This document shows positions 4,036 to 34,160 of a stretch of 36,795 nucleotides of DNA, piece after piece. The translations under genes were made by a program, and so were the position numbers. The stretch lies in NCBI GenBank assembly GCA_026416055.1, contig JAOAFX010000011.1, positions 1-36,795 of the forward strand, written 5' to 3'. Numbering within the stretch: the first letter of the stretch is position 1; the number at the start of each line of letters is the position of its first letter. This DNA is from Caldifarciminota bacterium (GTDB lineage: Bacteria > Hydrothermota > Tepidihabitantia > SM23-42 > JAOAFX01). The notes under the pieces are model-generated. The model was not told the DNA's origin, did no database searches, and saw only the letters and a program-made list of their open reading frames with translations.

Positions 4036-5622
4036 TTAAAATATACTTGTCAAAACAGCCTTTATGCCTCGGAATGGTTCTTCAAATCGGCAAACTCCAC
4101 CTGAACATACCAATCCTCCTTTTTCACCGCCAATTCTCAATCTGAGATTATGCCTGGTCGTCAAATCAAGGCTCAATTCAAGCATCGGCCAGAATGTCTC
4201 TTTACCTAGTTTCTCTATTAACCATCCAGGAACACGATTCCTCTTTTCCACCCGCAGGGTTAATACGAATCGCTCCGGTTTACCAACTGATACAGATGCG
4301 GCCCGGTCATTATATTTACTTGTATCACTGGTAGTGAATGTTTGTTCAAGCCCGAGTTCAATAAAGAATGTACCAAAGTCATATTGCAAATCCAGATAAG
4401 GCTTGGTCTCAGTTTTTTTGTTGACCGGTAATTCAATCTTTTGCTTGACGAGATAATCTACACCGATTGTGATTTCAGATAATTCTGTGGGATGGGTTAT
4501 TGCCTTGACACCCTGTTCCAAAACACCAGCCATGCCATCCATCAAATAAAAAAGTTCTTTGAATCTACCCAGTCCCGGGTCATGGGTTGAAACTTTATTG
4601 TTATCAATCTCCAGTGAAATGAAATCAAATGGTGAAGTGACGACCGCTATACCATAGCCAATCTCATCTACACCACGATTAACTGAAATTCCAGATTTTA
4701 TCGGTGTTGGTGGCTCGTTATAACGATACCCGTCTTCACTGAATACACCGAGATCATTGTAGTCCATATACTGCAAAGAGAGACCGAATCCTGTTAGTGA
4801 TAAGGCAGAAGTGAATAGATAGCCATCGCCCTTCAGTCTGCCACCTACTCTCGGAATCGTTCCCAGGCGTTGGGCATATTCAAGATAGTTCTCCCATGGT
4901 CCAAGTTTGAAATTGATACCACCCCCGAAGAGCTCAGTAAACGCCTTTGGCGTCATATCCTTTTTCCGATTTATCCGTACATACCTTCCACCCAGGCTGG
5001 TATTAAATCCCCAGGGATTATCGAAGTTCAGAATGCTGGTCTCAAAATTAACACCCCGTATCTGGTCGGTTGTATCATTTTTTATTTTGTATTGCAATTC
5101 TTCGAAAAAGATATTGCGGGGTTTGCCGGAAAGAAGCGTAACCCGACTCTTGAAACCACTCAAGTCCACCTTCACACCAAAGAGTGAATTGTCATTGTTA
5201 AAATCCTCATCAAGGAACTGATTCAAACACAGCCCCCGACCAAATGTAGCATAATATCGCCCATAGAGTAACAGAACTGGATCTTTTTTGTACTGCGCAG
5301 AATAGTCGATATATGAAAGTCTGCCTATCGTCCGGAGCGAGGGCTCCCAGAAGAAAAATATTCCACGCATGGTCAGTTCTTTGTAATCAAGGGATAACTT
5401 CAATTTTTCGGTAAGGTGGTCTTTATAATTAGTTGTGTCAAGATTGGGATCGACAAAAAACCAGTATTCAGCACGATTAGAACCACTGAGCCGCAAATCC
5501 TGACCATGGGCAGGCAGTATCAGTAATACAAATATGCAGGTGAAGATAAGTTTTAGAAATCTTTCTGAATTTTTTATCTGGACTCCTGATTTCCAGAATT
5601 GCAGGTTTATCGATCTACTCAT
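4036..5622 (-). CDS. Predicted outer-membrane beta-barrel protein (DUF6029-like)
   Basis: The protein has 528 residues. The first ~40 include a hydrophobic stretch (FLKLIFTCIFVLLILPAHG) followed by QD, a plausible export signal, although its N-terminal region is long for a signal peptide. The rest is rich in alternating hydrophobic/polar strands with Gly and aromatic residues (for example LSGSNRAEYWFF and LYGRYYATFGRG), as expected of an outer-membrane barrel. It ends in an aromatic residue (TSIF), which is typical of barrel sorting signals. It resembles DUF6029 proteins as I remember them; I cannot confirm this without a profile search. The start overlaps the redoxin stop by 8 nt, making it the third gene of the envelope redox operon. 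It may be the membrane partner or client of the two thioredoxin-like proteins, which is inference. Confidence 0.7.
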   Translation of the reverse strand: MSRSINLQFWKSGVQIKNSERFLKLIFTCIFVLLILPAHGQDLRLSGSNRAEYWFFVDPNLDTTNYKDHLTEKLKLSLDYKELTMRGIFFFWEPSLRTIGRLSYIDYSAQYKKDPVLLLYGRYYATFGRGLCLNQFLDEDFNNDNSLFGVKVDLSGFKSRVTLLSGKPRNIFFEELQYKIKNDTTDQIRGVNFETSILNFDNPWGFNTSLGGRYVRINRKKDMTPKAFTELFGGGINFKLGPWENYLEYAQRLGTIPRVGGRLKGDGYLFTSALSLTGFGLSLQYMDYNDLGVFSEDGYRYNEPPTPIKSGISVNRGVDEIGYGIAVVTSPFDFISLEIDNNKVSTHDPGLGRFKELFYLMDGMAGVLEQGVKAITHPTELSEITIGVDYLVKQKIELPVNKKTETKPYLDLQYDFGTFFIELGLEQTFTTSDTSKYNDRAASVSVGKPERFVLTLRVEKRNRVPGWLIEKLGKETFWPMLELSLDLTTRHNLRLRIGGEKGGLVCSGGVCRFEEPFRGIKAVLTSIF

Positions 5623-6166
5623 GGCCCTTTCCCTTGCATTCTCCTTTACACTTTTTGCCGATAAGACAGCGAACCTTATCCACTATAATTTCCTCATCAC
5701 CGGGTTTGTATCCCTGATGTACAAAAACGATCTTTTTGTCCTGATTGATGATAAAACTCGTCGGCATCGCCTGAACATTATATAACTCCCGCAAAATATT
5801 ATCCGGGTCAAGAACCACAGTATATTTCCATTTATGGCTTAATGCAAATGGTTTAACCTTGGGCACAGCCCGTGCCTTATCTTGACTGATTGCAAGCATC
5901 TGTAAACCCAGGGAATCAAACTCATCGTAATATGGTCTGAGGGCATCGAGTTCTTTTATACACATCTTACACCACAATGCCCAGAAACTCATAAAAACCG
6001 GACCTTTTTTCAATAATGAATCGAGGCAGACGACATTACCATCCACATCCTGAAGTGTAAAATCAGGAGCCGTGGGCAATTCCTTTTCCTGGGCAAATAC
6101 AAAATTTACAATTAATAAAAACAGACTGCTAATCGCCAACAATTTAAATCTTATTTCTTCCTTCAT
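5615..6166 (-). CDS. Exported TlpA/ResA-like thiol-disulfide oxidoreductase
   Basis: This is a 183-residue thioredoxin-fold protein of the redoxin/TlpA group. Residues 1-25 form a signal peptide or membrane anchor (LLAISSLFLLIVNFVFA-Q). The redox centre is W65-C66-K67-M68-C69 within FWALWCKMC, and the cis-Pro loop is AMPTSF. It should act in the periplasm, reducing or exchanging disulfides. The start overlaps the stop of the upstream selenoprotein-like gene by 4 nt (ATGA), and its stop overlaps the barrel gene, so the three are translationally coupled. An unusual C-terminal tail contains additional cysteines (KCKGEC) and lysines. The neighbouring Sec/Cys protein may be its redox partner; no membrane DsbD-like electron donor is encoded in the window. 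Confidence 0.88.
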   Translation of the reverse strand: MKEEIRFKLLAISSLFLLIVNFVFAQEKELPTAPDFTLQDVDGNVVCLDSLLKKGPVFMSFWALWCKMCIKELDALRPYYDEFDSLGLQMLAISQDKARAVPKVKPFALSHKWKYTVVLDPDNILRELYNVQAMPTSFIINQDKKIVFVHQGYKPGDEEIIVDKVRCLIGKKCKGECKGKGHE

Positions 6167-6879
6167 TTTGCCTCCTCAAATTTTGTTGATATGGTCTGCA
6201 TAACTTCTTTGGTACCTTTATTCTGGATAAAGACTGTCGCCCGCATTTTTGATGCGGGAATGTTGTGGCTGAATTCAAAGTATTTAATCATGCTGTCAGG
6301 ATATTGGAGTTCCACAGGGAACTCATATAAAGCCCTGCAGACACGATAGAAGGTTCCATATGCACCACGAAGACTATCTTCAGTAATGGCAACGAATGCA
6401 TTTATCTCCCCTGATGGTATTGAATCGGCTGCCACTATCTTTAATTTGAATCGGGCGATTGAAGGCTCGGTAATAGCACTATCAATAGTGAGATTATAAT
6501 AGGGTGTATTGGTCCGTGCCAGCTGATAATGAATATTGTAGATGCTGTCGTATTTGTTAGGATCAGGTTCAAATACTGCATCAGTACCATCAAAGACAAC
6601 AAAGGGCTCGGTATATCCAGTATTGTAAAAATCCTCTCGCTCCTTTGCTTTAGGTATCATATATGGTCCGCTCGCATGATAACACACCACGACTAAGGTG
6701 TCTCCAGTCTCGTTTGCCACACTATCAATCAATGCCCGCTCCGCGAGCACGCAGAAAAATCAGCCATCCTCGGTAAACATTTCTGCAAGAACTATTCGGC
6801 TTGTGGGTTCAGGAAATTTTACGACCGGCGCATCTGAACAAAATATAAATAATAATGTTAAAAGGTATAATTTTTTCAT
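6163..6879 (-). CDS. Omp28/thioredoxin-like exported protein with in-frame UGA, candidate selenoprotein (UxxC)
   Basis: I read this as one 238-residue protein starting at the ATG at 6879 and passing through UGA at codon 40 (6762-6760). Codons 1-15 give a hydrophobic export signal (MKKLYLLTLLFIFC). Codons 30-43 read VLAEMFTEDG-U-FFC, which aligns with the E-x-F-T-x-x-x-C-x-x-C motif of Omp28-related thioredoxin-like proteins, with U in place of the first redox Cys. Frame and family resemblance continue after the UGA (VVVCYHASGPY, then TEPFVVFDGT, the likely cis-Pro loop). A gene called from the GTG at 6750 would lack both the signal sequence and the whole redox motif. A consensus promoter ends 6 nt before the ATG, supporting this start. 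UGA is a normal stop elsewhere in the window. Alternatives are a nonsense mutation or a base error of TGT/TGC to TGA. It is the first gene of the three-gene redox operon. Confidence 0.8.
6732..6750 (-). promoter_or_regulatory. Putative bacterial SECIS hairpin
   Basis: Immediately downstream of the in-frame UGA the mRNA can fold as GUGCUCGC-GGA-GCGGGCAU, eight pairs including two wobbles with a GGA loop. The apical loop begins 17 nt after the UGA and starts with G. As I recall the bacterial SECIS consensus, the loop lies 16-37 nt after the UGA with a G in the first two loop bases, so it fits. The region is strikingly GC-rich for this gene. An alternative fold (GCUC-GCG-GAGC) exists. Confidence 0.55.
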
Positions 6880-6885
6880 GGAGTA

Positions 6886-6913
6886 ATTATATCCCTGTAT
6901 TTCATAAAGTCAA
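6886..6913 (-). promoter_or_regulatory. sigma70-type promoter of the redox operon (leaderless)
   Basis: On the minus strand TTGACT (6913-6908), a 16-nt spacer and TATAAT (6891-6886) lie directly before the ATG at 6879, with 6 nt between -10 box and start codon. Transcription would begin at or within a base of the ATG. No Shine-Dalgarno is present, consistent with a leaderless mRNA. Confidence 0.8.
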
Positions 6914-7186: not shown

Positions 7187-7214
7187 TTGACATTTAGCAC
7201 AGTTTATTTATAAT
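7187..7214 (+). promoter_or_regulatory. Consensus promoter of the metG operon (leaderless)
   Basis: TTGACA (7187-7192), 16-nt spacer, TATAAT (7209-7214), then 5 nt to the ATG at 7220. A start site about 7 nt past the -10 box coincides with the ATG. A TTG at 7214 lies in frame but overlaps the -10 box, so it is not the start. Confidence 0.88.
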
Positions 7215-7219
7215 TGATT

Positions 7220-9190
7220 ATGAAAATTCTTGTCACAAGTGCCCTGCCTTATGCCAATGGGGATATACATTTAGGCCATCTTGCCGGTGCCTACCTGCCG
7301 GCAGATATCTATGTGCGCTATCAGCGGTTAAAAGGAAGGGATGTTATACATATCTGCGGAACAGATGAACACGGTGTTCCGATAACCGTCCTTGCTGATC
7401 AGCAGAAAAAGACACCAAGGGAGATTGTTGATTACTATCATGAATCAATCAAGAAATCCTTTATTGAATTTGGTATTTCCTTTGATAATTTTTCTCGCAC
7501 CACAATACCCCTCCATTACCGCCTTGCCCAGGATTTTTTCTTAAAAATTTATAACAAAGGATATATTTACGCAAAAGAGAATGAGCAGTTTTATTGTCCG
7601 AAATGCCAGAGATTTTTGCCCGACCGATATGTCGTGGGAAAATGTCCCCGCTGTGGCATTGATGGTGCCAAAGGTGACCAGTGTGAAGCCTGCGGCAGGT
7701 GGCTGGAACCTTTTCAGTTGATTGAACCCCGCTGTTTGATCTGTAATGAAAGGCCAGTAAAACAAAAAACAAAACACTGGTATTTCCGGTTATCACAATT
7801 CCAGAATCAACTCGTCTGGTGGATCGAAGAAAAAAAACACTGGCGTGAGACAGTCCTGTCCTCTGTCAAGGGCTGGTTAAAAGAGGGGCTTCAAGATAGA
7901 CCGATCACAAGGGATATGTCCTGGGGCGTACCGGTTCCTCTTGAAGAAGCACGGGGGAAGGTTTTATATGTCTGGTTTGATGCACCGATCGGATATATCT
8001 CATCAACGATGGAATGGGCAATAAATAAAGGTGAACCTGATTTGTGGAAAGAATACTGGTTTAATCCAGAAACCAAACTCGTCCACTTCATCGGTAAGGA
8101 TAATATTGTCTTCCACGCCCTTATCTGGCCTGCCATGCTCATGGCCTATGGTGATTATATACTGCCATCCGAGATTCCTGCAAATCAGTTTTTGAATCTG
8201 GAAGGTGAGAAACTTTCTACATCCAGGGGCTATGCCATCTGGCTTCCTGAATATCTTAAAGAATTCCCTGCTGATTCATTGAGATATGCCCTGACCCGGA
8301 ACCTTCCCGAGACCCGTGATTCAGATTTTACCTGGCGTGATTTCCAGGCCTGGCATAATAATGAACTTGCTGACATCCTCGGTAATTATATCAACCGCAC
8401 ACTAACTTTCATTGAGAAATACTACAATTATAATGTTCCTTCGGCTTCCGCGTTTACCGAAAGCGAAAACAGAATCCTTGATATGCTCCATAAGGCACCA
8501 GGGATAATCGGCGAGAAAATTGAAAATTTCGAATTCAAAAATGCACTTCAGGAAGTGATGAAACTTGCCCAGGAAGGTAATCGTTATTTTGATAAAGAAG
8601 CACCCTGGATAACCCGCAAAACAAATCCTTTGATCGGTGAAAGGACGATGTATATCTGCATGAAAATAGTAACATCACTTGCCGTCCTCATTGAACCATT
8701 TTTACCCTTTACAGCACAAAAACTCAAGAAGATGATAAACTTCACCGAACAGAGCTGGGACCATATCTCAACACCGATCGTTCCGACCACAATCGGTAAA
8801 CCCGAGATTCTGTTTAAGAAAATTGAAAATCAGGTGATTGAGGTCCAGATTGCAAAACTGAAAAAGAAGGAGTGCACCATTGACGATTTCAACAAATTAG
8901 AATTGCGCACCGCCAGGGTTGTCTCGGCAAAAAAGGTTGAAGGAAGTGATCATTTAATCGTTTGTGAAATTGAAATTGGAGACAAGAAAAAACAGATTGT
9001 TGCAGGCATTGGAAAGTATTATCAACCAGAGGAACTCATCGGTAAGACGATTATTGTGGTAAATAATCTCAAGCCAGTTACCCTTAAAGGTGTCCTTTCT
9101 GAAGGAATGCTCCTTGCAGCACAGGATAAAGAAGGATTGGTACTTTTGACGACCGATAAACCGATTTCACCGGGTGCAACAGTGAAGTGA
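7220..9190 (+). CDS. metG: Methionyl-tRNA synthetase
   Basis: This 656-residue cytosolic class I aminoacyl-tRNA synthetase charges tRNA-Met with methionine. The HIGH motif is H17-L-G-H20 and the KMSKS-type loop is K331-L-S-T-S335. A zinc-binding insertion carries four Cys pairs (CPKC, CPRC, CEAC, CLIC). An anticodon-binding helical domain follows, and about 105 C-terminal residues form an EMAP/Arc1p-type tRNA-binding domain (FNKLELRTARVV, then NLKPVTLKGVLSEGM). This fused C-terminal domain is common in dimeric bacterial MetRS. The start is fixed by the adjacent -10 box. The stop overlaps the tatD start by 4 nt (GTGA), heading a four-gene operon. Confidence 0.97.
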   Translation: MKILVTSALPYANGDIHLGHLAGAYLPADIYVRYQRLKGRDVIHICGTDEHGVPITVLADQQKKTPREIVDYYHESIKKSFIEFGISFDNFSRTTIPLHYRLAQDFFLKIYNKGYIYAKENEQFYCPKCQRFLPDRYVVGKCPRCGIDGAKGDQCEACGRWLEPFQLIEPRCLICNERPVKQKTKHWYFRLSQFQNQLVWWIEEKKHWRETVLSSVKGWLKEGLQDRPITRDMSWGVPVPLEEARGKVLYVWFDAPIGYISSTMEWAINKGEPDLWKEYWFNPETKLVHFIGKDNIVFHALIWPAMLMAYGDYILPSEIPANQFLNLEGEKLSTSRGYAIWLPEYLKEFPADSLRYALTRNLPETRDSDFTWRDFQAWHNNELADILGNYINRTLTFIEKYYNYNVPSASAFTESENRILDMLHKAPGIIGEKIENFEFKNALQEVMKLAQEGNRYFDKEAPWITRKTNPLIGERTMYICMKIVTSLAVLIEPFLPFTAQKLKKMINFTEQSWDHISTPIVPTTIGKPEILFKKIENQVIEVQIAKLKKKECTIDDFNKLELRTARVVSAKKVEGSDHLIVCEIEIGDKKKQIVAGIGKYYQPEELIGKTIIVVNNLKPVTLKGVLSEGMLLAAQDKEGLVLLTTDKPISPGATVK

Positions 9191-21646: not shown

Positions 21647-21840
21647 CAGCGTTTTAAACACATCACAAATCTTTCAAAAGACCTGTCATAGGTTTTTTCC
21701 ACTTCAGGAGGAAAAAAACAGCCAGGCAATTCTCGATGGCTCAGATGATACTTAAGGCACTCACAGCACTTGCCTTTCCTTGAACAGGGTTCGTATGTGC
21801 AGGTACAACTTTTTTTATTTTTCTCTATTATGCATTCCAT
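21646..21840 (-). CDS. DUF6485-type small cysteine-rich protein
   Basis: This 64-residue protein has nine Cys: C3, C12, C14, C19, C25, C26, C28, C41 and C61. The core [17 protein letters not shown], then [11 protein letters not shown] and [10 protein letters not shown], matches the DUF6485 family as I remember it. It probably binds zinc or an iron-sulfur cluster; the function is unknown. It has no export signal. It is the first gene of the eight-gene minus-strand run, starting 5 nt after a TATAAT box, and its stop overlaps the gcvPB start by 1 nt. Confidence 0.82.
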
Positions 21841-21845
21841 ACTGA

Positions 21846-21873
21846 ATTATATCCATTTTCAGAATAGTGTCAA
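21846..21873 (-). promoter_or_regulatory. Promoter of the DUF6485-gcvPB-mutL-rpmF-plsX-fabH-lysC run (leaderless)
   Basis: On the minus strand TTGACA (21873-21868), 16-nt spacer and TATAAT (21851-21846) lie 5 nt before the ATG at 21840. It is a perfect consensus promoter and the only clear one seen for the downstream eight-gene run. It is divergent from the promoter at 21917, with 43 nt between the two -35 boxes. Confidence 0.85.
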
Positions 21874-21916: not shown

Positions 21917-21945
21917 TTGACTGGTGTTGCTCAATTCTGTATAAT
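21917..21945 (+). promoter_or_regulatory. Promoter of the RNA methyltransferase gene (leaderless)
   Basis: TTGACT (21917-21922), 17-nt spacer, TATAAT (21940-21945), then GTCTT and the ATG at 21951. The 5-nt gap places the transcription start at the start codon. Confidence 0.85.
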
Positions 21946-21950
21946 GTCTT

Positions 21951-23321
21951 ATGACTATTGAAGAAATTTATTCCCGATATGAAAAAATAATACCTGATTT
22001 TAAAGAATTTTTAGAAATTTTACACCAGCCGCAACGGATTTCTATTAGATTAAACACCATCAAGTGCAGAAAGGAGACGATTTTAAACCTTTTTAAAGAT
22101 TATGAGTTAATACCTTTAAAATTTTATGAAGATGGCTATATTGTAAAGAATGGCTTCGGAATAGGAAATCATTATCTTCATCAACTCGGCCTGATATATG
22201 TCCAGGAGATTGCTTCAATGATTCCTGCACTCATTCTTGAACCGAAACCAGGAGAAGTGATCCTTGATCTCTGCGCCTCTCCTGGATCAAAGACAACCCA
22301 GATTTCGCAACTCATGGGAAACAAAGGTTTACTAATTGCCAATGAGATAGACTATAAAAGACTTTCCAGCCTTATCCATAATGTAAAAAAATGCGGCCTT
22401 TTGAACGAAGTTCTGATTTCTATACCAGGAGAAAAGATCGGCGATGTCCTGCCGAATTATTTCGATAAAATCCTCCTCGATGCACCATGTTCTGCAGAAG
22501 GTACAATCAGGAAATCAAAGAAGGTTCTCTACCACTGGGGTATAAAAAACATCCAGAAGATGGCACGAATACAGAAAGGGTTGATCGTTTCTGCATTCCG
22601 TGCACTCAAGCCCGGTGGTATAATGGTCTATTCAACCTGCACGATTGCTCCTGAAGAGAATGAAGGGGTCGTTGATTATCTTTTAAAAAAATTCCCTGAG
22701 GCTGAAGTGTTACCAATAAATCTGAACGGATTCAAATTCCGTCCTGGTGTTACCAACTGGGAGAAAGAAAACTATGATCCGAGGGTTAAAAACTGCGCGC
22801 GGATACTGCCCCAGGATAATGACACCGCACCCTTTTTCTTGACGAAGATTACCAAACTCGGCCTACCGCAGATGCGTCCTGGCTACCATGGAAGGATTGA
22901 ATATCAGAATAAAATCATCGATATGCTCAATCGCCAGTATGAATTACCCGACAATAGATTCAGTGATTTTGCGGTATTCCAGAGGGGTGATAAATACTTC
23001 ATATCCACACCCGAAGCGTATGCTTTCATTGAAATCCCTGCAATAAGAAAGGGTCTGGAAGTGGGGAGGGTCTATGGATCTAACCTGAAACCGGATAATG
23101 ACTTTGTCCAAATTTTTGCTTTAGGCGCAAAGAAAAATACCGTGGAATTAAAAGATTGGGAACTGAAAAGAATTTTGCGAGGAGAAAGTATAAAAAAGCA
23201 AAACGATTTAGGTGAGTTTATAATATTTACATTTAAAGGCTTTCCTGTGAGTGTCGGTCATGTTAATAACGATGAAATAAAGTCTACTGTAAAAAGGGCT
23301 CGCAGGATAAAAGAGGACTGA
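21951..23321 (+). CDS. NOL1/NOP2/Sun-family RNA m5C methyltransferase (RsmF/RsmB-like)
   Basis: The 456-residue SAM-dependent enzyme is predicted to form 5-methylcytosine in rRNA or tRNA. Motif I is LDLCASPGSKTTQ. The two catalytic Cys motifs are present, DAPCSAEGTIRKS (motif IV) and STCTIAPEENEGV (motif VI). The ~150 C-terminal residues, including SDFAVFQRGDKYFI and KGFPVSVGHV, resemble the PUA-like extension of RsmF/YebU. The N-terminal RsmB NusB-like domain is absent, so RsmF-like (or a tRNA enzyme) fits better than RsmB. It is a single-gene unit with its own promoter. The exact target base cannot be assigned. Confidence 0.9.
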   Translation: MTIEEIYSRYEKIIPDFKEFLEILHQPQRISIRLNTIKCRKETILNLFKDYELIPLKFYEDGYIVKNGFGIGNHYLHQLGLIYVQEIASMIPALILEPKPGEVILDLCASPGSKTTQISQLMGNKGLLIANEIDYKRLSSLIHNVKKCGLLNEVLISIPGEKIGDVLPNYFDKILLDAPCSAEGTIRKSKKVLYHWGIKNIQKMARIQKGLIVSAFRALKPGGIMVYSTCTIAPEENEGVVDYLLKKFPEAEVLPINLNGFKFRPGVTNWEKENYDPRVKNCARILPQDNDTAPFFLTKITKLGLPQMRPGYHGRIEYQNKIIDMLNRQYELPDNRFSDFAVFQRGDKYFISTPEAYAFIEIPAIRKGLEVGRVYGSNLKPDNDFVQIFALGAKKNTVELKDWELKRILRGESIKKQNDLGEFIIFTFKGFPVSVGHVNNDEIKSTVKRARRIKED

Positions 23322-25682: not shown

Positions 25683-26546
25683 GTGCAATTGGAGATTATT
25701 GTAGTTAACGAAAGGGATAATAGAACTTTGAATTTTTCTGTGAATTGGGGTGTTCTATGCCTGATAATCTGTTTTATTATAACGATCGCCTTCCTCTTTG
25801 TACATGGGGTAGTAAATTTTGCACGCGGCCGGACTGATTATAAAAGATTACACCAGCTGACCCGCGAAAATTCGATCGTGCAAAAAGAGATTGAAAAAAT
25901 GGAATTGGAGATAAGGACTTTGAAGGTTATGCTTGATACCCTGATTAAAAAAGACACAGTGATGAAATATTTTTCAGGGCTTATCCCACTTGAAAGTCTA
26001 ATCATAAATCACATCCATGCGAAATTAGAACAAGGTTTTACAACCGGTTCACCTGAAAATATTGATGAACTGCTAAAGATAGCTGAAAACCAATACCTTA
26101 CCCGGAAGGCGATCATTGATTATCTGAATCATAAAGAAGATTTTAAACAATCCATTCCATCAATACCACCAGTTAATGGCTGGTATATACGAGGGTTTGG
26201 TTATACCCACGATCCTTTCACCGGACAACTCTGGATGCATGAAGGAATTGATATTGCAGCTCCTGAGGGCACCCCTGTTTTTGCCCCGGGAGACGGGGTA
26301 GTAAAAAATATTCAGCATAATCGCGACTTCGGCATTGTAATCGAAATCGATCATCAAGAAGGCTGGAAAACTGTTTATGCCCACTGCCAGCGTGCCGCGG
26401 TCCGTGTAGGGCAACTTGTGAAAAGGGGTGATTTAATAGGATATGTGGGCATGACCGGTAAATGCTCGGGTCCCCATCTCCACTATGAGATAAGGCTTAA
26501 CAATATTCCGGTAGACCCACTCGACTATATAATATTCAACTTCTGA
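25683..26546 (+). CDS. Membrane-anchored M23-family metallopeptidase (LytM/NlpD-like)
   Basis: The protein has 287 residues. A single N-terminal transmembrane helix (about 17-45, VLCLIICFIITIAFLFV) is followed by a coiled-coil-like stretch (about 55-90) and a C-terminal zinc peptidase domain facing the periplasm. Zinc and catalytic motifs are HEGIDIAAPEGTPV (H-x3-D) and PHLHYEIR (H-x-H), with YAHCQRA supplying the third conserved His. Such enzymes cut peptidoglycan cross-links or, if inactive, activate amidases; all key residues are present here, so activity is likely. The start is GTG. nadA follows 3 nt downstream, so the pair is cotranscribed. Confidence 0.9.
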   Translation: MQLEIIVVNERDNRTLNFSVNWGVLCLIICFIITIAFLFVHGVVNFARGRTDYKRLHQLTRENSIVQKEIEKMELEIRTLKVMLDTLIKKDTVMKYFSGLIPLESLIINHIHAKLEQGFTTGSPENIDELLKIAENQYLTRKAIIDYLNHKEDFKQSIPSIPPVNGWYIRGFGYTHDPFTGQLWMHEGIDIAAPEGTPVFAPGDGVVKNIQHNRDFGIVIEIDHQEGWKTVYAHCQRAAVRVGQLVKRGDLIGYVGMTGKCSGPHLHYEIRLNNIPVDPLDYIIFNF

Positions 26547-26549
26547 CCG

Positions 26550-27452
26550 ATGCATGAACTGATAGAAAAAATTGAAGAACTAAAGAAAAAAAGGGATGCT
26601 GTCATTCTTGTGCATAATTACCAGCTTCCTGAAGTCCAGGATATCGGAGATTATGTAGGCGATTCCCTTGAGCTCGCCCGATTTTCCAAAAACACTCAAT
26701 CAAAGGTCATCGTTTTTTGTGGAGTCCATTTCATGGCTGAAACTGCAAAAATTTTTAATCCAGATAAAAAAGTCCTGATGCCCGATATCCATGCTGGATG
26801 TCCTATGGCAAATATGATCGATCCGATACGCTTGATTAAAGAAAAAGAAAAACATCCTGAAGCTGGGGTCATAACCTATATAAATTCTACCGCAGAAGTA
26901 AAAGCCCTTTCTGATATCTGCTGTACCTCGGCAAATGGTGTCAAGGTTGCCAAGAAAATGGAAAAAGATGAAATAATATTCGTGCCTGACAAATACCTTG
27001 GTAGTTATGTAGCACGCCGGGTTCCAGAGAAGAAATTTTATCTTTATAATGGCTATTGTCCGACCCACATGCTCTTCAGCAGAGAAGAGATTCTCAGGTT
27101 GAAAGGGGAATTCCCCGATGCTCTGGTTCTTGCCCACCCAGAGTGTAGAATTGAAGTGCAGGAAATAGCAGACGAAATCTGTTCTACCTCCCAGATGCTA
27201 ACCTTTGCCAGAAATAATCCAGCAAAACGATTTATCATCTGTACCGAGATTGGTTTAATCCACCGTTTAAAAAAAGAGAATCCAGAAAAAGAATTCATTC
27301 CTGGCAACCCCAATGCAATCTGTCCTAATATGAAACTGAACACCCTGGAAAAAATTCTCTGGTCTCTTGAAGATATGAAATATGAAATAAATGTGGATGA
27401 AGAAGTAAGAATAAAAGCACTTAAAGCAATAGAGCGAATGATGGCTATTTAA
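26550..27452 (+). CDS. nadA: Quinolinate synthase
   Basis: The 300-residue [4Fe-4S] enzyme condenses iminoaspartate with dihydroxyacetone phosphate to quinolinate in de novo NAD synthesis. Family motifs are AVILVHNYQLPEVQDIGDYVGDS, FCGVHFMAETAKI (first cluster Cys), NSTAEVKALSDICCTSAN, AHPECR (third-domain Cys region) and NAICPNMKLNTL (last cluster Cys). The length matches the NadA form of ~300 residues. It is oxygen-sensitive, in keeping with an anaerobic lifestyle. nadB and nadC are not in the window. It is encoded 3 nt after the M23 gene. Confidence 0.96.
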   Translation: MHELIEKIEELKKKRDAVILVHNYQLPEVQDIGDYVGDSLELARFSKNTQSKVIVFCGVHFMAETAKIFNPDKKVLMPDIHAGCPMANMIDPIRLIKEKEKHPEAGVITYINSTAEVKALSDICCTSANGVKVAKKMEKDEIIFVPDKYLGSYVARRVPEKKFYLYNGYCPTHMLFSREEILRLKGEFPDALVLAHPECRIEVQEIADEICSTSQMLTFARNNPAKRFIICTEIGLIHRLKKENPEKEFIPGNPNAICPNMKLNTLEKILWSLEDMKYEINVDEEVRIKALKAIERMMAI

Positions 27453-29106: not shown

Positions 29107-30229
29107 ATGAAGAAACCGAATAAGTTTGTATCTCTTACACTCAATGAGGTAAAGGAATTGAGGAAAAAATACAATATTCTAAAGGAGCATCTTTGACCCC
29201 AACAGGATTATACAACAATTAAAGAAACTCCAGGAAGAAGCAAATCAACCGAATTTCTGGGCAAATAAAGAAAGGGCCCAAAAAGTGATGGCTGAGATTG
29301 ATGAGAAGCAGGGTTATCTCGATCGTCTGAAAGAGATAGACAACGGGATAACATTTTTAAATGAACTCCTTGAACTGACTGATATTGATGATGAGATACT
29401 GAAGGACGCAGAACAGGAATTAAAGAATATCACACAGAAAATAAAAGATTTAGAAATTCAATTACTGCTGGGTGGGGGAGATGACAGCAAAAATTGTTTG
29501 ATAACAATCCATCCTGGTGCCGGAGGTACTGAATCATGTGATTGGGCTGAAATGCTTTTGAGGATGTATACGCGTTATATTCAATCCAAAAATTTTTCCT
29601 ATCGAATAATAGACTTGCTCCCAGGTGAAATTGCGGGTATAAAGGATGCCACGATTGAGGTGAATGGCAAGTATGCCTACGGACTTTTGAAAGCCGAAAC
29701 CGGTATCCACCGCCTTGTCCGTATATCACCTTTTGATGCCAATCAGAAAAGACACACTTCATTTGCCTCGGTATTCGTCTATCCCGAGGTTGAAGAAGTA
29801 AGTTTTGAAATAAAAGATGATGATTTAAAAATTGAGACATTTCGTGCAGGTGGCCATGGTGGGCAGAATGTAAACAAGGTTTCTTCAGCAGTAAGGATAA
29901 CCCATATCCCGACCGGAATCACTGTTCAGTGTCAGAATGAGCGGTCTCAGTATTTGAATAAAGTGACAGCGATGAAGATTCTAAAATCTCGCCTTTATAA
30001 TTATTACAAGCAGCAGGAAGAAGAAAAATTGAATAAACTTGAAGCCCAGAAAACGGAAATTGCCTGGGGCCATCAAATCCGCTCTTATATTTTTCATCCC
30101 TATAAACTTGTAAAAGACCACCGCACTGGATACGAAACGACTCAAATTGAACGGGTGATGGACGGAGAAATTGACGACTTCATCTATGCATATCTTAACA
30201 TGATTGTAAGGAAATCATCCAGTAGTTGA
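29107..30229 (+). CDS. prfB: Peptide chain release factor 2, expressed by programmed +1 frameshift
   Basis: The product is read as 29107-29193 joined to 29195-30229, 373 residues. The first frame encodes 29 residues ([20 protein letters not shown]...) and ends at UGA 29194-29196; a +1 shift at CUU-U gives [14 protein letters not shown] and the normal RF2 body. Stop-codon recognition S207-P-F209 identifies RF2 (UGA/UAA), and the peptidyl-hydrolysis motif is G251-G-Q253 in [10 protein letters not shown]. The length matches E. coli RF2. A call starting at 29285 would lose the N-terminal domain. Presence of RF2 and its UGA sensor shows that UGA is a stop in this organism. Confidence 0.95.
29182..29197 (+). 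promoter_or_regulatory. prfB: prfB +1 recoding site (internal Shine-Dalgarno, CUU UGA C)
   Basis: AAGGAG, a 3-nt spacer CAT and CTT TGA C form the classical RF2 autoregulatory site: when RF2 is scarce the ribosome pauses at UGA, the internal Shine-Dalgarno pulls the mRNA and tRNA-Leu slips from CUU to UUU. Spacing and slip codon match the E. coli site. Confidence 0.95.
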
Positions 30230-30253
30230 CAGAACTTATAATTACAGTATAAT
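30226..30253 (+). promoter_or_regulatory. Promoter of the TPR membrane protein operon (leaderless)
   Basis: TTGACA (30226-30231), 16-nt spacer, TATAAT (30248-30253), 5 nt, ATG at 30259. The -35 box overlaps the prfB stop codon (30227-30229). Confidence 0.87.
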
Positions 30254-30258
30254 TCATC

Positions 30259-31980
30259 ATGGTGTTTATTCTCATCTTTATTCTGAGTTTCAACCGTGAA
30301 TATCAAAATTTTATAAATTCACCTCAAAGTGAATCAATATTTGTCCATCTGATGCGTGATAAAACAAAGTTGAACGAGTATAAAAACAACCCAATCATTT
30401 TATGGTTCTGGCGTAGTAAAACAAATGATACAAAGGTTGATTCTTTTCTAAAAAACTTAAGTATTCCAAGGAATCCATATCTTTCTGGGGTATTGAGGTG
30501 GGAAGCAAAGGAATCAAAAGACCTGATTGAGAAATATAATAAAATAAAATTGGCAATTCATTTTGATTCGCTATCAATAGAAAACTTTCTGTCACTAATA
30601 AACCTCGGTATAAGTTCGCGAAATTCTAATTTTTTAAAAGAAGCCCTCACCCTGCCTGTCTTTTCTGATTTCCGCAATCAAATATTCCTTTTAGGAAATT
30701 TATCTATTCTTTTAATCATTGCCCTCTTGGTTAACTTTTTTGTGTTTATTATAGTAAAATTTATAAATTATCTGCCAGTTTTGTGTCACAAACTTGACCC
30801 GATGGGTCATAATCTGCTAAAAGGGATGCTGGGTTTTGCCCTTTTGTTAATTCCAATTCTGGTGTTGAGAAATCTTTATCTAACTTTGATTATTTATAGC
30901 ATTATTCTTACATTCATAATGAATAACCGGGAAAGAAACTGGCTCAGAATTAATTTAATCCTTGTGGTAACGATTGCTGTTATCATGTCAATGTTTAACT
31001 TCGTTTCTTTTCTCAAAGGGCAGGACAAAACGTATTATCTCTATCAAATGGTGGCAATGGATGGTGACATTAGAATCAATCCCGAATCAAGATTAGAAAA
31101 AGAGGTGCTTGCTTATGCCCTCAAAAAACAGGGGCAATATGATGAAGCCCTGGCGTTATATGAAGATTTATATTACAACCAGAATCTCCGGAGTGTGGAT
31201 ATTTTGAATAATCTCGCCAACCTTTATGCAATATACGAGGAAGATGAAAGGGCTGAAGAACTTTATCGTAAGGCGATGCTGAGCGACCGTGGTGAACCCT
31301 ATTTCAATCTCGCGCTTCTTAAATACCGAAAGATTGAATATCTATCGGCAGGGGAACTCATGGAACAGGCAAGGCAACGTGGTTTTATCCGTGCCCAGAG
31401 TGAACCGGTGGATATAGCTCCAGGGACAAAATGGCTTTATAATCTTCTCATAAAACCCGGTTTAAACTTCTCCGGTCCTGTTAAAATTCCATACCTGCTG
31501 ATCTTATTGCTGATATTTTTCTTTACCTTTATTCCTTTTAAAATTCCACCGCCCTATCGCTGTGCAATCTGCGGAAAACCGGTCTGCCGAGCGTGTGCTG
31601 AAGAAACTGGTGATGAATTCCAATGCCAGGGATGTGCAAAAAAATTGAATGCAACCAAAAATGAGGAGATCGAAGAAGAATTAAAAGAATCCCTGGGCAG
31701 GTTCCACAGATTTATCAAAAGGGCACTTTCAGTTGGTTTAAACATCATCCTGCCTGGAGCAGGATTGATTTATAAAAACAAAAACTTTGCGGGATTGAGT
31801 ATTACCTTCCTGGCGGTAATGGCATATACACCGATCCTTATGAAATCCCATTTCGTCAGACCATCAGGATGGATATGCCTTTCCCTGACACCGATATTAT
31901 TACCTGTGGCAGCGATCGTCCTTCTCTTCTGTTATGTTCTTTCTTTCCTCTTCTTACCAGGAGGTGGTGATGCCGATTGA
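30259..31980 (+). CDS. Polytopic membrane protein with TPR segment and cysteine zinc-finger
   Basis: I do not recognise this 573-residue protein as a named family. The N-terminus is hydrophobic (VFILIFILSF). Helices near residues 150-175, 190-215 and 220-250 form a membrane block (LLIIALLVNFFVFIIVKF, then others). TPR-like repeats follow at about 285-385 (EVLAYALKKQGQYDEALALYEDLYY, DILNNLANLYAIYEEDERAEELY). After another helix (YLLILLLIFFFTFIPF) comes CAICGKPVCRACAEETGDEF with CQGC, a three-pair Cys zinc finger like a B-box. The end has two to three helices, the first with the glycine-rich LSVGLNIILPGAGLIY. It starts at ATG 30259, 5 nt after the -10 box. The 3' end overlaps the DUF4388 gene by 11 nt, suggesting joint function. 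Confidence 0.75.
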   Translation: MVFILIFILSFNREYQNFINSPQSESIFVHLMRDKTKLNEYKNNPIILWFWRSKTNDTKVDSFLKNLSIPRNPYLSGVLRWEAKESKDLIEKYNKIKLAIHFDSLSIENFLSLINLGISSRNSNFLKEALTLPVFSDFRNQIFLLGNLSILLIIALLVNFFVFIIVKFINYLPVLCHKLDPMGHNLLKGMLGFALLLIPILVLRNLYLTLIIYSIILTFIMNNRERNWLRINLILVVTIAVIMSMFNFVSFLKGQDKTYYLYQMVAMDGDIRINPESRLEKEVLAYALKKQGQYDEALALYEDLYYNQNLRSVDILNNLANLYAIYEEDERAEELYRKAMLSDRGEPYFNLALLKYRKIEYLSAGELMEQARQRGFIRAQSEPVDIAPGTKWLYNLLIKPGLNFSGPVKIPYLLILLLIFFFTFIPFKIPPPYRCAICGKPVCRACAEETGDEFQCQGCAKKLNATKNEEIEEELKESLGRFHRFIKRALSVGLNIILPGAGLIYKNKNFAGLSITFLAVMAYTPILMKSHFVRPSGWICLSLTPILLPVAAIVLLFCYVLSFLFLPGGGDAD

Positions 31981-32941
31981 AGGTAATTTAAAAAGCATAA
32001 ATTTTGCAAGCATACTTCAATTAATCGCCCAGGAAAGGCTGACCGGTGTTTTAAAGATAAAAAGAAAAACTGAACTTGTGGACATTGGATTTATAGAAGG
32101 GCAGATTACAGGTGCATTTTTTGAAAAAGGTGAAAAGGTCGAACGACTGGAAAATTACCTCGTCCGTTCCGGATTTATCAAAAAAAATCTCTACGATATG
32201 ATAAAAGAAATACATGAAGAGACAAAGCGTCCAATAATGAATATCATCATCGATGATAAGTATCTCACTATGGAAGAAGTGGAACGCATCATCAAATTCA
32301 AAATTCAAGAAGTGATTGATGAAGTATTTACCTGGCAGGATGGTGAATTTAAATTTGAAGAAGGCGCAATAATTTATCCCAAAAGTCTTATTAAGATCAG
32401 ATTGAATACTGAAAATATTGTTCTGGAATCTGCACGCCGGTTTGATGAATGGCCACGAATTGTAAGCCAGATTCCTTCACCAGATCTGGTATTTAAAAAA
32501 GTGGAACGTCCAGAATTAAAACTAAAATTACCTGAAGATGAATTACGAGTTCTTTCACTCGTTGATGGACACCGGAGTGTGAATGACCTTGTGGATATAT
32601 CAGGATTAGGGAAATTTCACACATATTCCTGCCTTTATCATCTTTTAACAACAGGGCAGATTGAACTTGCCTATGCAAAACCCACACCAAAAGTAACAAA
32701 ACCAAAAAAAGAGATTTCTTTAAAATTTCTCACCACCCCGGCAACGATTCTTTTATTCTTTTTAATAATATTTTTAGAAATTCTGATCGGCAATGTCTTT
32801 GTTAAAAAGATTAATCTTGACATCGATTTTTTAAATATTGACTATATGGAAGAAGATTTGTATGATTATAAAAAAGTATTCTTCTACAAAAACAATCGCC
32901 TTCCTTCAGATTCTGAAGTGAAGAATATTTTCAAAAAATGA
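31970..32941 (+). CDS. DUF4388 (PatA-like N-terminal) protein with C-terminal membrane helix
   Basis: The 323-residue protein begins MPIEGNLKSINFASILQLIAQERLTGVLKI, the DUF4388 signature (GNL-x-x-I-x-x-x-LLQ-L plus TG-x-L-x-I), a domain found in gliding, twitching and signalling proteins of many phyla. A middle helical region resembles the type II secretion GspE N-terminal-like fold (YLVRSGFI, MEEVERIIKFKIQEVIDEVFTW), and a winged-helix-like segment (ELRVLSLVDGHRSVNDLVDISG) follows. One transmembrane helix lies near residues 250-270 (ATILLFFLIIFLEILIG), with a short tail. The ATG at 31970 is chosen for AGGAGG 5 nt upstream; an upstream in-frame ATG lacks such a site. A link to the pilM gene 4 kb away is possible but speculative. 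Confidence 0.82.
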   Translation: MPIEGNLKSINFASILQLIAQERLTGVLKIKRKTELVDIGFIEGQITGAFFEKGEKVERLENYLVRSGFIKKNLYDMIKEIHEETKRPIMNIIIDDKYLTMEEVERIIKFKIQEVIDEVFTWQDGEFKFEEGAIIYPKSLIKIRLNTENIVLESARRFDEWPRIVSQIPSPDLVFKKVERPELKLKLPEDELRVLSLVDGHRSVNDLVDISGLGKFHTYSCLYHLLTTGQIELAYAKPTPKVTKPKKEISLKFLTTPATILLFFLIIFLEILIGNVFVKKINLDIDFLNIDYMEEDLYDYKKVFFYKNNRLPSDSEVKNIFKK

Positions 32942-32953
32942 AAAGGGCTCGTT

Positions 32954-33925
32954 ATGTTATACAAAGATGCGGGCGTCGATATTAACCGTCTGAATAAGTT
33001 AAAAAAAGGGATTGGTAAGCAGATAGAGAAAACCCTGCCCCGGGAATCCCTTTTTGGATTGTTTGGAGGCATCTATCCAATGGGTGATAAGTTTATAATC
33101 GCCAGCGTTGATAGCGTGGGAACCAAGATTCTCATTGCCTGTGCCACCGGCATCCATAAAACTGTAGGAATCGATATAGTAAATCACTGCGTCAATGATA
33201 TCCTCACCACCGGTGCATTACCTTTATTTTTTATGGATTATATAGGATTTTCAGAAGTAAGTAATGGTGTTCTCAAAGATGTTATGAAAGGGCTGGTCAA
33301 CGCCTGCAAAAAAGAGAAGATGGCATTGATAGGTGGCGAAACTGCACAACTCAAAAGATTTTATCCAAAAGGTGTTTATGACCTTGTCGGTTTTATAGTA
33401 GGAATAGTGGACAAGCAGGATTATATCAACCCCCAGCGAATAGAACCCGGTGACATTCTTCTGGGGTTAAAATCCTCAGGCCTCCACACCAATGGTTATA
33501 CACTGGCACGAAGGGTTCTATTTAAAAAATACAGTCTTTCATCATATATTCCCGGTCTCAAATGCACACTTGCCGAAGAGCTTCTAAAAGTCCATAAATC
33601 GTATCGTCGGGAACTTGAGCCACGATTGAAATATATAGATGGCATTGCCCATATCACGGGTGGGGGTTTTTATGATAATATTGAAAGGATATTACCTCCT
33701 GGAACTTCGGCGATAATAAGAAAGAAATCATGGAAGGTTCCTGTGATCTTCAAGATTATCCAGGAAACAGGAAAGATTCCAGAAGAGGAGATGTATCGCG
33801 TATTCAATATGGGCATTGGTATGGTGGTGATAATAAAACCACAGAATTTAAAATTTTTCAAGCCAGTAAATCCAGTTATAATCGGTGAGATTGAAAAAGG
33901 TGAGAAAAAAGTTAAAATAGAGTAG
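32954..33925 (+). CDS. purM: Phosphoribosylformylglycinamidine cyclo-ligase (AIR synthase)
   Basis: This 323-residue ATP-dependent enzyme forms aminoimidazole ribotide in de novo purine synthesis. The N-terminal MLYKDAGVDINRLNKL, the ATP-binding DSVGTKILIA, VGIDIVNHCVNDILTTGALPLFFMDYI, GGETAQL and HITGGGFYDNIERILP are family hallmarks. The length is somewhat below the ~345 of E. coli, mainly at the C-terminus, but all motifs are present. It follows the DUF4388 gene by 12 nt with no other purine gene nearby. Its stop is 1 nt from the stop of a convergent gene. Confidence 0.96.
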   Translation: MLYKDAGVDINRLNKLKKGIGKQIEKTLPRESLFGLFGGIYPMGDKFIIASVDSVGTKILIACATGIHKTVGIDIVNHCVNDILTTGALPLFFMDYIGFSEVSNGVLKDVMKGLVNACKKEKMALIGGETAQLKRFYPKGVYDLVGFIVGIVDKQDYINPQRIEPGDILLGLKSSGLHTNGYTLARRVLFKKYSLSSYIPGLKCTLAEELLKVHKSYRRELEPRLKYIDGIAHITGGGFYDNIERILPPGTSAIIRKKSWKVPVIFKIIQETGKIPEEEMYRVFNMGIGMVVIIKPQNLKFFKPVNPVIIGEIEKGEKKVKIE

Positions 33926-33926
33926 A

Positions 33927-34127
33927 CTAAAGAGTAAAAGGCTCCTGACCTTTTAATCGGTTGTCAATGAAAATATTGCTTAATCCGTACAACTGCATTA
34001 TTTCTTCGTAAAAAAATGTTGAATCACATTGGGGGCAGATGTAATCACCATCCTGATTAATTATCAAATCGACATACCTTGAAGTGAACAGACAGTAAGG
34101 ACAAAGTATTTTGTCAAACTTTGCCAT
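33927..34127 (-). CDS. Small zinc-ribbon protein, 66 aa
   Basis: This hypothetical protein, MAKFDKILCPYC followed about 20 residues later by CPQC, forms one zinc ribbon, then a short helical tail. It may bind nucleic acid or another protein, but nothing identifies its role. The ATG at 34127 is chosen because a TATAAT box ends 5 nt upstream; an in-frame TTG six bases upstream touches that box. Its own promoter and intact Cys pairs support it as a real gene. The 3' end is 1 nt from the convergent purM stop. Confidence 0.78.
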   Translation of the reverse strand: MAKFDKILCPYCLFTSRYVDLIINQDGDYICPQCDSTFFYEEIMQLYGLSNIFIDNRLKGQEPFTL

Positions 34128-34132
34128 ACTCA

Positions 34133-34160
34133 ATTATATAGTAACTCAACCATAAGTCAA
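34133..34160 (-). promoter_or_regulatory. Promoter of the zinc-ribbon gene (leaderless)
   Basis: On the minus strand TTGACT (34160-34155), 16-nt spacer, TATAAT (34138-34133), 5 nt, ATG at 34127. It sits in the 34-nt gap after the isomerase stop. Confidence 0.85.

Follow-up and report, generated by a model that had tools for sequence, protein, structure and literature searches.

The window, a stretch of 36,795 nucleotides, carries on its minus strand a gene (6163..6879, hereafter the Sec gene) of 238 codons that has one internal UGA and ends in TGA. Between the ATG at 6879 and the terminal TGA at 6165-6163, the frame meets a single internal stop, the TGA at 6762-6760, which is codon 40. The read-through product has 238 residues; it starts MKKLYLLTLLFIFC-SDAP... 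and later reads VLAEMFTEDG-U-FFC. Codon 40 (6760..6762) aligns with a column that is Cys in paralogues and is predicted to encode selenocysteine (Sec). Three further positions on the same strand characterize the product: (i) Cys43 (6751..6753), the resolving Cys of the UxxC motif, which is invariant; (ii) Pro92 (6604..6606), which is near invariant and, judging by the fold, would occupy the cis-proline position of a thioredoxin; and (iii) Cys14 (6838..6840), the lipobox Cys of FIFC-SDAP in a predicted lipoprotein signal, which is invariant in Sec and Cys homologues. Ordinary gene callers would shorten the gene to 195 aa, with loss of both the signal peptide and the active site.

A promoter, TTGACT-16-TATAAT (6886..6913, minus strand, 11/12 matches), lies directly before the ATG, and a leaderless mRNA is therefore implied. 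In the relatives that we inspected the layout is the same: a promoter of TTGAC type whose -10 box lies a few bases ahead of the ATG. At its 3' end the Sec gene overlaps, as ATGA, a gene for a TlpA/ResA-like thioredoxin (5615..6166, minus strand), whose motif, WCKMC, keeps the ordinary WCxxC form. The third gene of the operon (4036..5622, minus strand) encodes a DUF6029 protein (PF19494, 84.3 bits), which is probably located in the outer membrane. A preliminary description of this DNA had reported the continuous frame from the ATG at 6879 with its one UGA, the coupled downstream gene, and the leaderless consensus promoter, which we located at 6913-6886; our analysis agrees on each.

We made three other observations on the window and its genome. 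The pattern TTGAC-N16-18-TATAAT followed by an ATG within 3-12 nt has seven matches in the window, at six sites (6877-6913, 7187-7222, 21833-21873, 21917-21953, 30226-30261, and 34125-34160), versus 0.02 expected, which suggests that leaderless transcription is common in this genome. At 25683-27452 and 31934-33925, pairs of full-length genes share one frame, with nothing but a TGA and a few codons between the two; these are probably ordinary coupled tandem genes rather than Sec genes. A short dispersed palindrome, GCAAGGCTAAAGCCTTGC, occurs at L154:2379-2411 and on many contigs of the same genome (G000), with several copies on contig C98.

Conservation of the UGA codon and of the operon

We searched 100 related genomes by tblastn with the read-through protein, and almost all close orthologues had one in-frame TGA; a profile search of 65 genomes of the class contributed further UGA orthologues. 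In all, 38 genomes of WOR-3 type, single-contig chromosomes among them, share the UGA form, with the codon in one alignment column. Because the TGA recurs at one column in the orthologues of 38 genomes, chance and sequencing error are excluded; the base error that would have refuted the preliminary description is thus ruled out. In the sequences that we extracted, this column is the first position of CxxC in stop-free paralogues, for example ARCVYCP in the same genome. The proposed placement of the UGA on the first Cys of CxxC thus held, with Cys or Sec at that column in the homologues. One apparent UGA gene, in G025, was rejected, as its TGA sits at another position. An extra copy in another genome (L009, in G023) has GGA (Gly) instead of UGA and lacks tlpA and the DUF6029 gene behind it.

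In named records, the carriers of the UGA form are MAGs of candidate division WOR-3 / Candidatus Stahlbacteria. These WOR-3/Stahlbacteria records were reached by a scan with the TlpA alignment; a scan of genome contigs with the window protein as query found no relatives. Among the tlpA-bearing records, one is labelled TA06 and one Latescibacterota.

Coding constraint does not end at the TGA. The dN/dS ratio was 0.15 before the UGA and 0.11 after it for one pair of genomes (G000/G002), and 0.13 before and 0.16 after for another (G013/G015), with some pairs saturated at synonymous sites. Purifying selection persists beyond the TGA and is as strong there as before it.

The operon is conserved along with the codon: tlpA follows the Sec gene in 37 of the 38 orthologues, and the DUF6029 gene comes next in 35/38. 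The exceptions lie where a contig ends or where the sequence is masked. Among the TlpA matches from Ignavibacteriae and Myxococcales, no close orthologue of the Sec protein stands directly before tlpA; the two Ignavibacteriae tlpA loci have a distant Omp28-like stretch further on.

A candidate SECIS hairpin downstream of the UGA

A candidate bSECIS hairpin (6732..6750, minus strand) starts 9 nt past the UGA and spans columns 13-31, counted from the U of UGA. It has an 8-bp stem and a GGA loop (6742-6740), with a UGA-loop spacing of 17 nt. The published bSECIS model calls for a loop of 3-9 nt with G in the first two positions, a stem of 4-16 bp, a spacing of 16-37 nt, and an energy of at most -7.5 kcal/mol (PMC13188914). 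At -10.4 kcal/mol, the window hairpin fits this model in its loop, its stem, and its spacing, and 33 of 38 orthologue hairpins are at or below -7.5 kcal/mol. As a single sequence, the window hairpin has a modest thermodynamic z-score of -1.86, and the SECIS argument therefore rests on comparative evidence.

Laid over 28 orthologues, the hairpin had 92.0% of its cells paired, versus 22-50% in slid controls. Cells with a double change numbered 35, versus 10.8 +/- 4.0 after shuffling, and double changes were present at six of the eight pairs. Covariation is clearest at pair 18-26, where 14 sequences have CG and 13 have UA; this exchange couples a CGG/CAG (Arg/Gln) codon difference to the third position of a codon further upstream. 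The hairpin is absent from the Cys paralogues, in which no more than 1-5 of the 8 pairs can form.

Selenocysteine machinery in the genome and its class

The window's genome encodes selA (543 bits), selB directly after it (343.8 bits), and, beside selB, a tRNA-Sec with anticodon UCA (79 bits), all in one cluster. We found no selD match above cut-off in this assembly, an 84.6% complete MAG of 163 contigs. The search for Sec machinery that the preliminary description had called for was therefore positive for selA, selB, and tRNA-Sec, and negative for selD in an incomplete assembly. Among relatives, selD scored above cut-off in 24 of 31 genomes, and its gene context varies between sister species. 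In one sister, selD adjoins serS; in the window's genome, serS lies mid-contig without selD. We rejected a local assembly gap beside serS as the cause of the missing selD, as the serS contig runs on without it. A second sister has selD in a different gene setting, a 6-kb block that has no convincing DNA match in the window's genome. The SelD of relatives (L050-L055) is itself encoded with one in-frame UGA.

Across the class, 47 genomes have selA over cut-off, and 35 of these carry the Sec form, versus 3 of the 18 without (Fisher p = 3.8e-5, a figure inflated by shared ancestry). In G018, G027, and G051, the Sec form occurs although selA gave no full match.

Predicted export and fold of the Sec protein

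The sequence Cys14-Ser-x-Ala-Pro (C14-S15-x-A17-P18), which follows a hydrophobic stretch, is nearly invariant. Signal and lipobox both fit an exported lipoprotein, which is what we predict the Sec protein to be. In the sorting-domain search, the window protein had no match to the T9SS models TIGR04183 or PF18962.

We modelled the protein with AlphaFold2, with U40 as Cys (mean pLDDT 92.5). In the model, U40 stands just before helix 41-61, and Pro92 just before strand 93-96. The elements of a thioredoxin fold are thus all in place: a beta-strand, UxxC at the start of a helix, and a cis-Pro before a strand. From N- to C-terminus, the model predicts a thioredoxin domain, which bears UxxC and cis-Pro, and an Omp28-like beta domain. 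Among PDB structures, the top match was Porphyromonas gingivalis HBP35 (5y1a; E 6e-10, TM 0.70 on the query); the Omp28 domain structure 2r2c was matched as well.

Relation to known families

The preliminary description had considered an Omp28-like Sec protein to be undescribed. This was too strong: NCBIfam already lists NF045500, 'Omp28-related selenoprotein', which is GOS_C, first reported in 2008 (PMC2398784) and included in a 2026 inventory (PMC13188914). The window protein shares with NF045500 a Trx-like fold, UxxC, an Omp28-related region, and prediction as a selenoprotein. They differ in that NF045500 is a model of 377 positions, whereas the window protein has 238 aa and is a predicted lipoprotein in an operon with tlpA and the DUF6029 gene. 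The window protein scored 21.9 bits against NF045500, below the cut-off of 200, and is therefore not filed there; its Cys paralogue scored higher, at 71.9.

The assignment to an Omp28-like fold stood in part. It is supported by the structural model and by the Cys paralogue in the same genome, which is 36% identical to the Sec protein and belongs to PF11551 (55 bits), but the Sec protein itself has no Pfam Omp28 (PF11551) match and scored 28.1 against NF033782, whose cut-off is 150. On these curated cut-offs, we rejected placing the Sec protein in either NF045500 or PF11551. With the Omp28 family (PF11551; NF033782, Omp28 family outer membrane lipoprotein; 2r2c) it shares the lipoprotein character, the Trx-like N-terminus, and the Omp28 beta domain; the family has Cys where the window protein has Sec. 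HBP35 (5y1a) likewise combines a thioredoxin domain with a beta domain in the cell envelope; it differs in its identity of 9%, its CxxC, and its C-terminal surface-attachment domain. HBP35 binds hemin and, in vitro, shows a thioredoxin activity for which both of its cysteines are required (PMC2907840). The redox-motif logic is also that of the TlpA/ResA/DsbE envelope thioredoxins, to which the overlapping downstream gene belongs; the Sec protein, with its C-terminal beta domain, falls outside that family.

The 2026 inventory (PMC13188914) lists 119 families, and none of them names the tlpA-linked Omp28-like Sec form; in the literature collection that we searched, no paper mentions both selenoprotein and Omp28. 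In a tree of 77 domains, most tlpA-linked Sec forms split from the Cys clade (97/95 support); a single clade of these forms is not demonstrated, because the placement of a few long branches is unsure. Two longer Omp28-like families also separate in this tree, each with Sec members. The window protein scores far below the NF045500 cut-off, and the 2026 inventory does not name it; by these sequence comparisons, the tlpA-linked Sec protein is therefore a distinct new subfamily of the catalogued Omp28-related selenoprotein type.

Other Omp28-like Sec candidates

The same genome holds a second candidate Omp28-like selenoprotein, of ~350 aa, with the active site EDUSTC (L078; G000:C72:18823-19518). 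Nine relatives have orthologues with UGA, and these group in one clade. Omp28-like proteins of ~600 aa with a C-terminal T9SS sorting domain also occur (L059, L064, L058, L151); this form has Sec in G005, G009, G016, and G023 and Cys in G000-G002 and G004. Several of the ~600-aa proteins are encoded near selD, selA, or tRNA-Sec. Within the Cys clade of small Omp28-like lipoproteins, one member (L025, in G020) has UGA in the corresponding position (NARUTYC); its gene lies ~1.3 kb upstream of selA, and this is apparently a separate Sec/Cys switch. WOR-3 bacteria might have a radiation of Omp28-type selenoproteins, namely the tlpA-linked lipoprotein, the ~600-aa T9SS-tailed form, and the ~350-aa form. 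Together these would constitute a dedicated selenium-based redox system of the envelope, with some of the genes next to selD, selA, and tRNA-Sec, and might also supply selenium to the Sec pathway; we consider this proposal doubtful.

Discussion

We put the probability of our explanation as a whole, which has a selenoprotein at its core, at roughly 0.9. That core, namely that the gene encodes a true selenoprotein, we hold to be nearly certain from the sequence evidence. The machinery, the UGA in 38 genomes, and the Cys/Sec column all support the exported UxxC selenoprotein that had been proposed in the preliminary description. Against our explanation count the negative selD search in this assembly, the Sec form of G018, G027, and G051 with no full selA match, and the modest z-score of the window hairpin.

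With a pseudogene, a nonsense mutation, or a base-calling error, the TGA would truly be a stop, in a gene that is dead or was misread. The source is a MAG in 163 contigs, and the G023 copy with GGA at the site might be read in this way; however, the TGA keeps its column across genera and families, dN/dS is low after it, and the hairpin covaries, and we regard such an origin as extremely unlikely. Termination at the TGA followed by re-initiation, for which an open reading frame from GTG 6750 exists, would yield a 195-aa protein lacking the signal peptide and the first redox residue. This is very unlikely: the orthologues have no start codon position after the TGA in common, three have no start codon at all within 39 codons, the signal, lipobox, and first strand ahead of the TGA are no less conserved, and paralogues have Cys at the UGA column. 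If instead this lineage read UGA as a standard amino acid, for example Trp, the frame would be open, which is all that speaks for the idea. Since 13 of 26 window genes, the Sec gene included, end in TGA, the codon is still a stop in the window's genome; moreover, the column is Cys rather than Trp, and tRNA-Sec(UCA), selA, and selB are present. The chance of such a reassignment is negligible.

A different question is what the selenoprotein does. It may be real and yet catalyze something other than disulfide exchange, as a seleno-peroxidase-like detoxifier, an HBP35-like heme binder, or a selenium- or metal-handling protein. The best fold match is the hemin-binding HBP35, and in several relatives Cys-clade and long Omp28-like paralogues are encoded near selD, selA, or tRNA-Sec. 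On the other hand, thiol-disulfide exchange agrees with both the UxxC plus cis-Pro and the conserved TlpA/ResA-like partner, and the Sec form adjoins tlpA and not the sel genes. We treat these other chemistries as a minority possibility that deserves to be kept in mind.

For the selenoprotein with thiol-disulfide chemistry, we propose the following sequence of events. SelB and Sec-tRNA(Sec), guided by the hairpin after the UGA, would decode codon 40 as selenocysteine, a step to which the sequence lends strong support. The product would be exported as a lipoprotein, with its predicted N-terminal thioredoxin domain and C-terminal Omp28-like beta domain. There it would most likely act as an envelope thiol/selenol-disulfide oxidoreductase, in which the selenol attacks and Cys43 resolves. 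It would probably exchange electrons with the TlpA/ResA-like thioredoxin of the overlapping gene, which may serve the DUF6029 protein or envelope disulfides. The conservation of the operon points to such a TlpA-linked disulfide relay, which we favor with some reserve.

These results add a well-supported selenoprotein subfamily, with its SECIS element and operon, in an uncultured phylum. They show the sparsely catalogued Omp28/GOS_C selenoprotein type to be conserved and diversified within one lineage. The Sec lipoprotein, together with TlpA and the DUF6029 protein, offers a concrete system in which to study the reasons for selenium use in envelope redox proteins.
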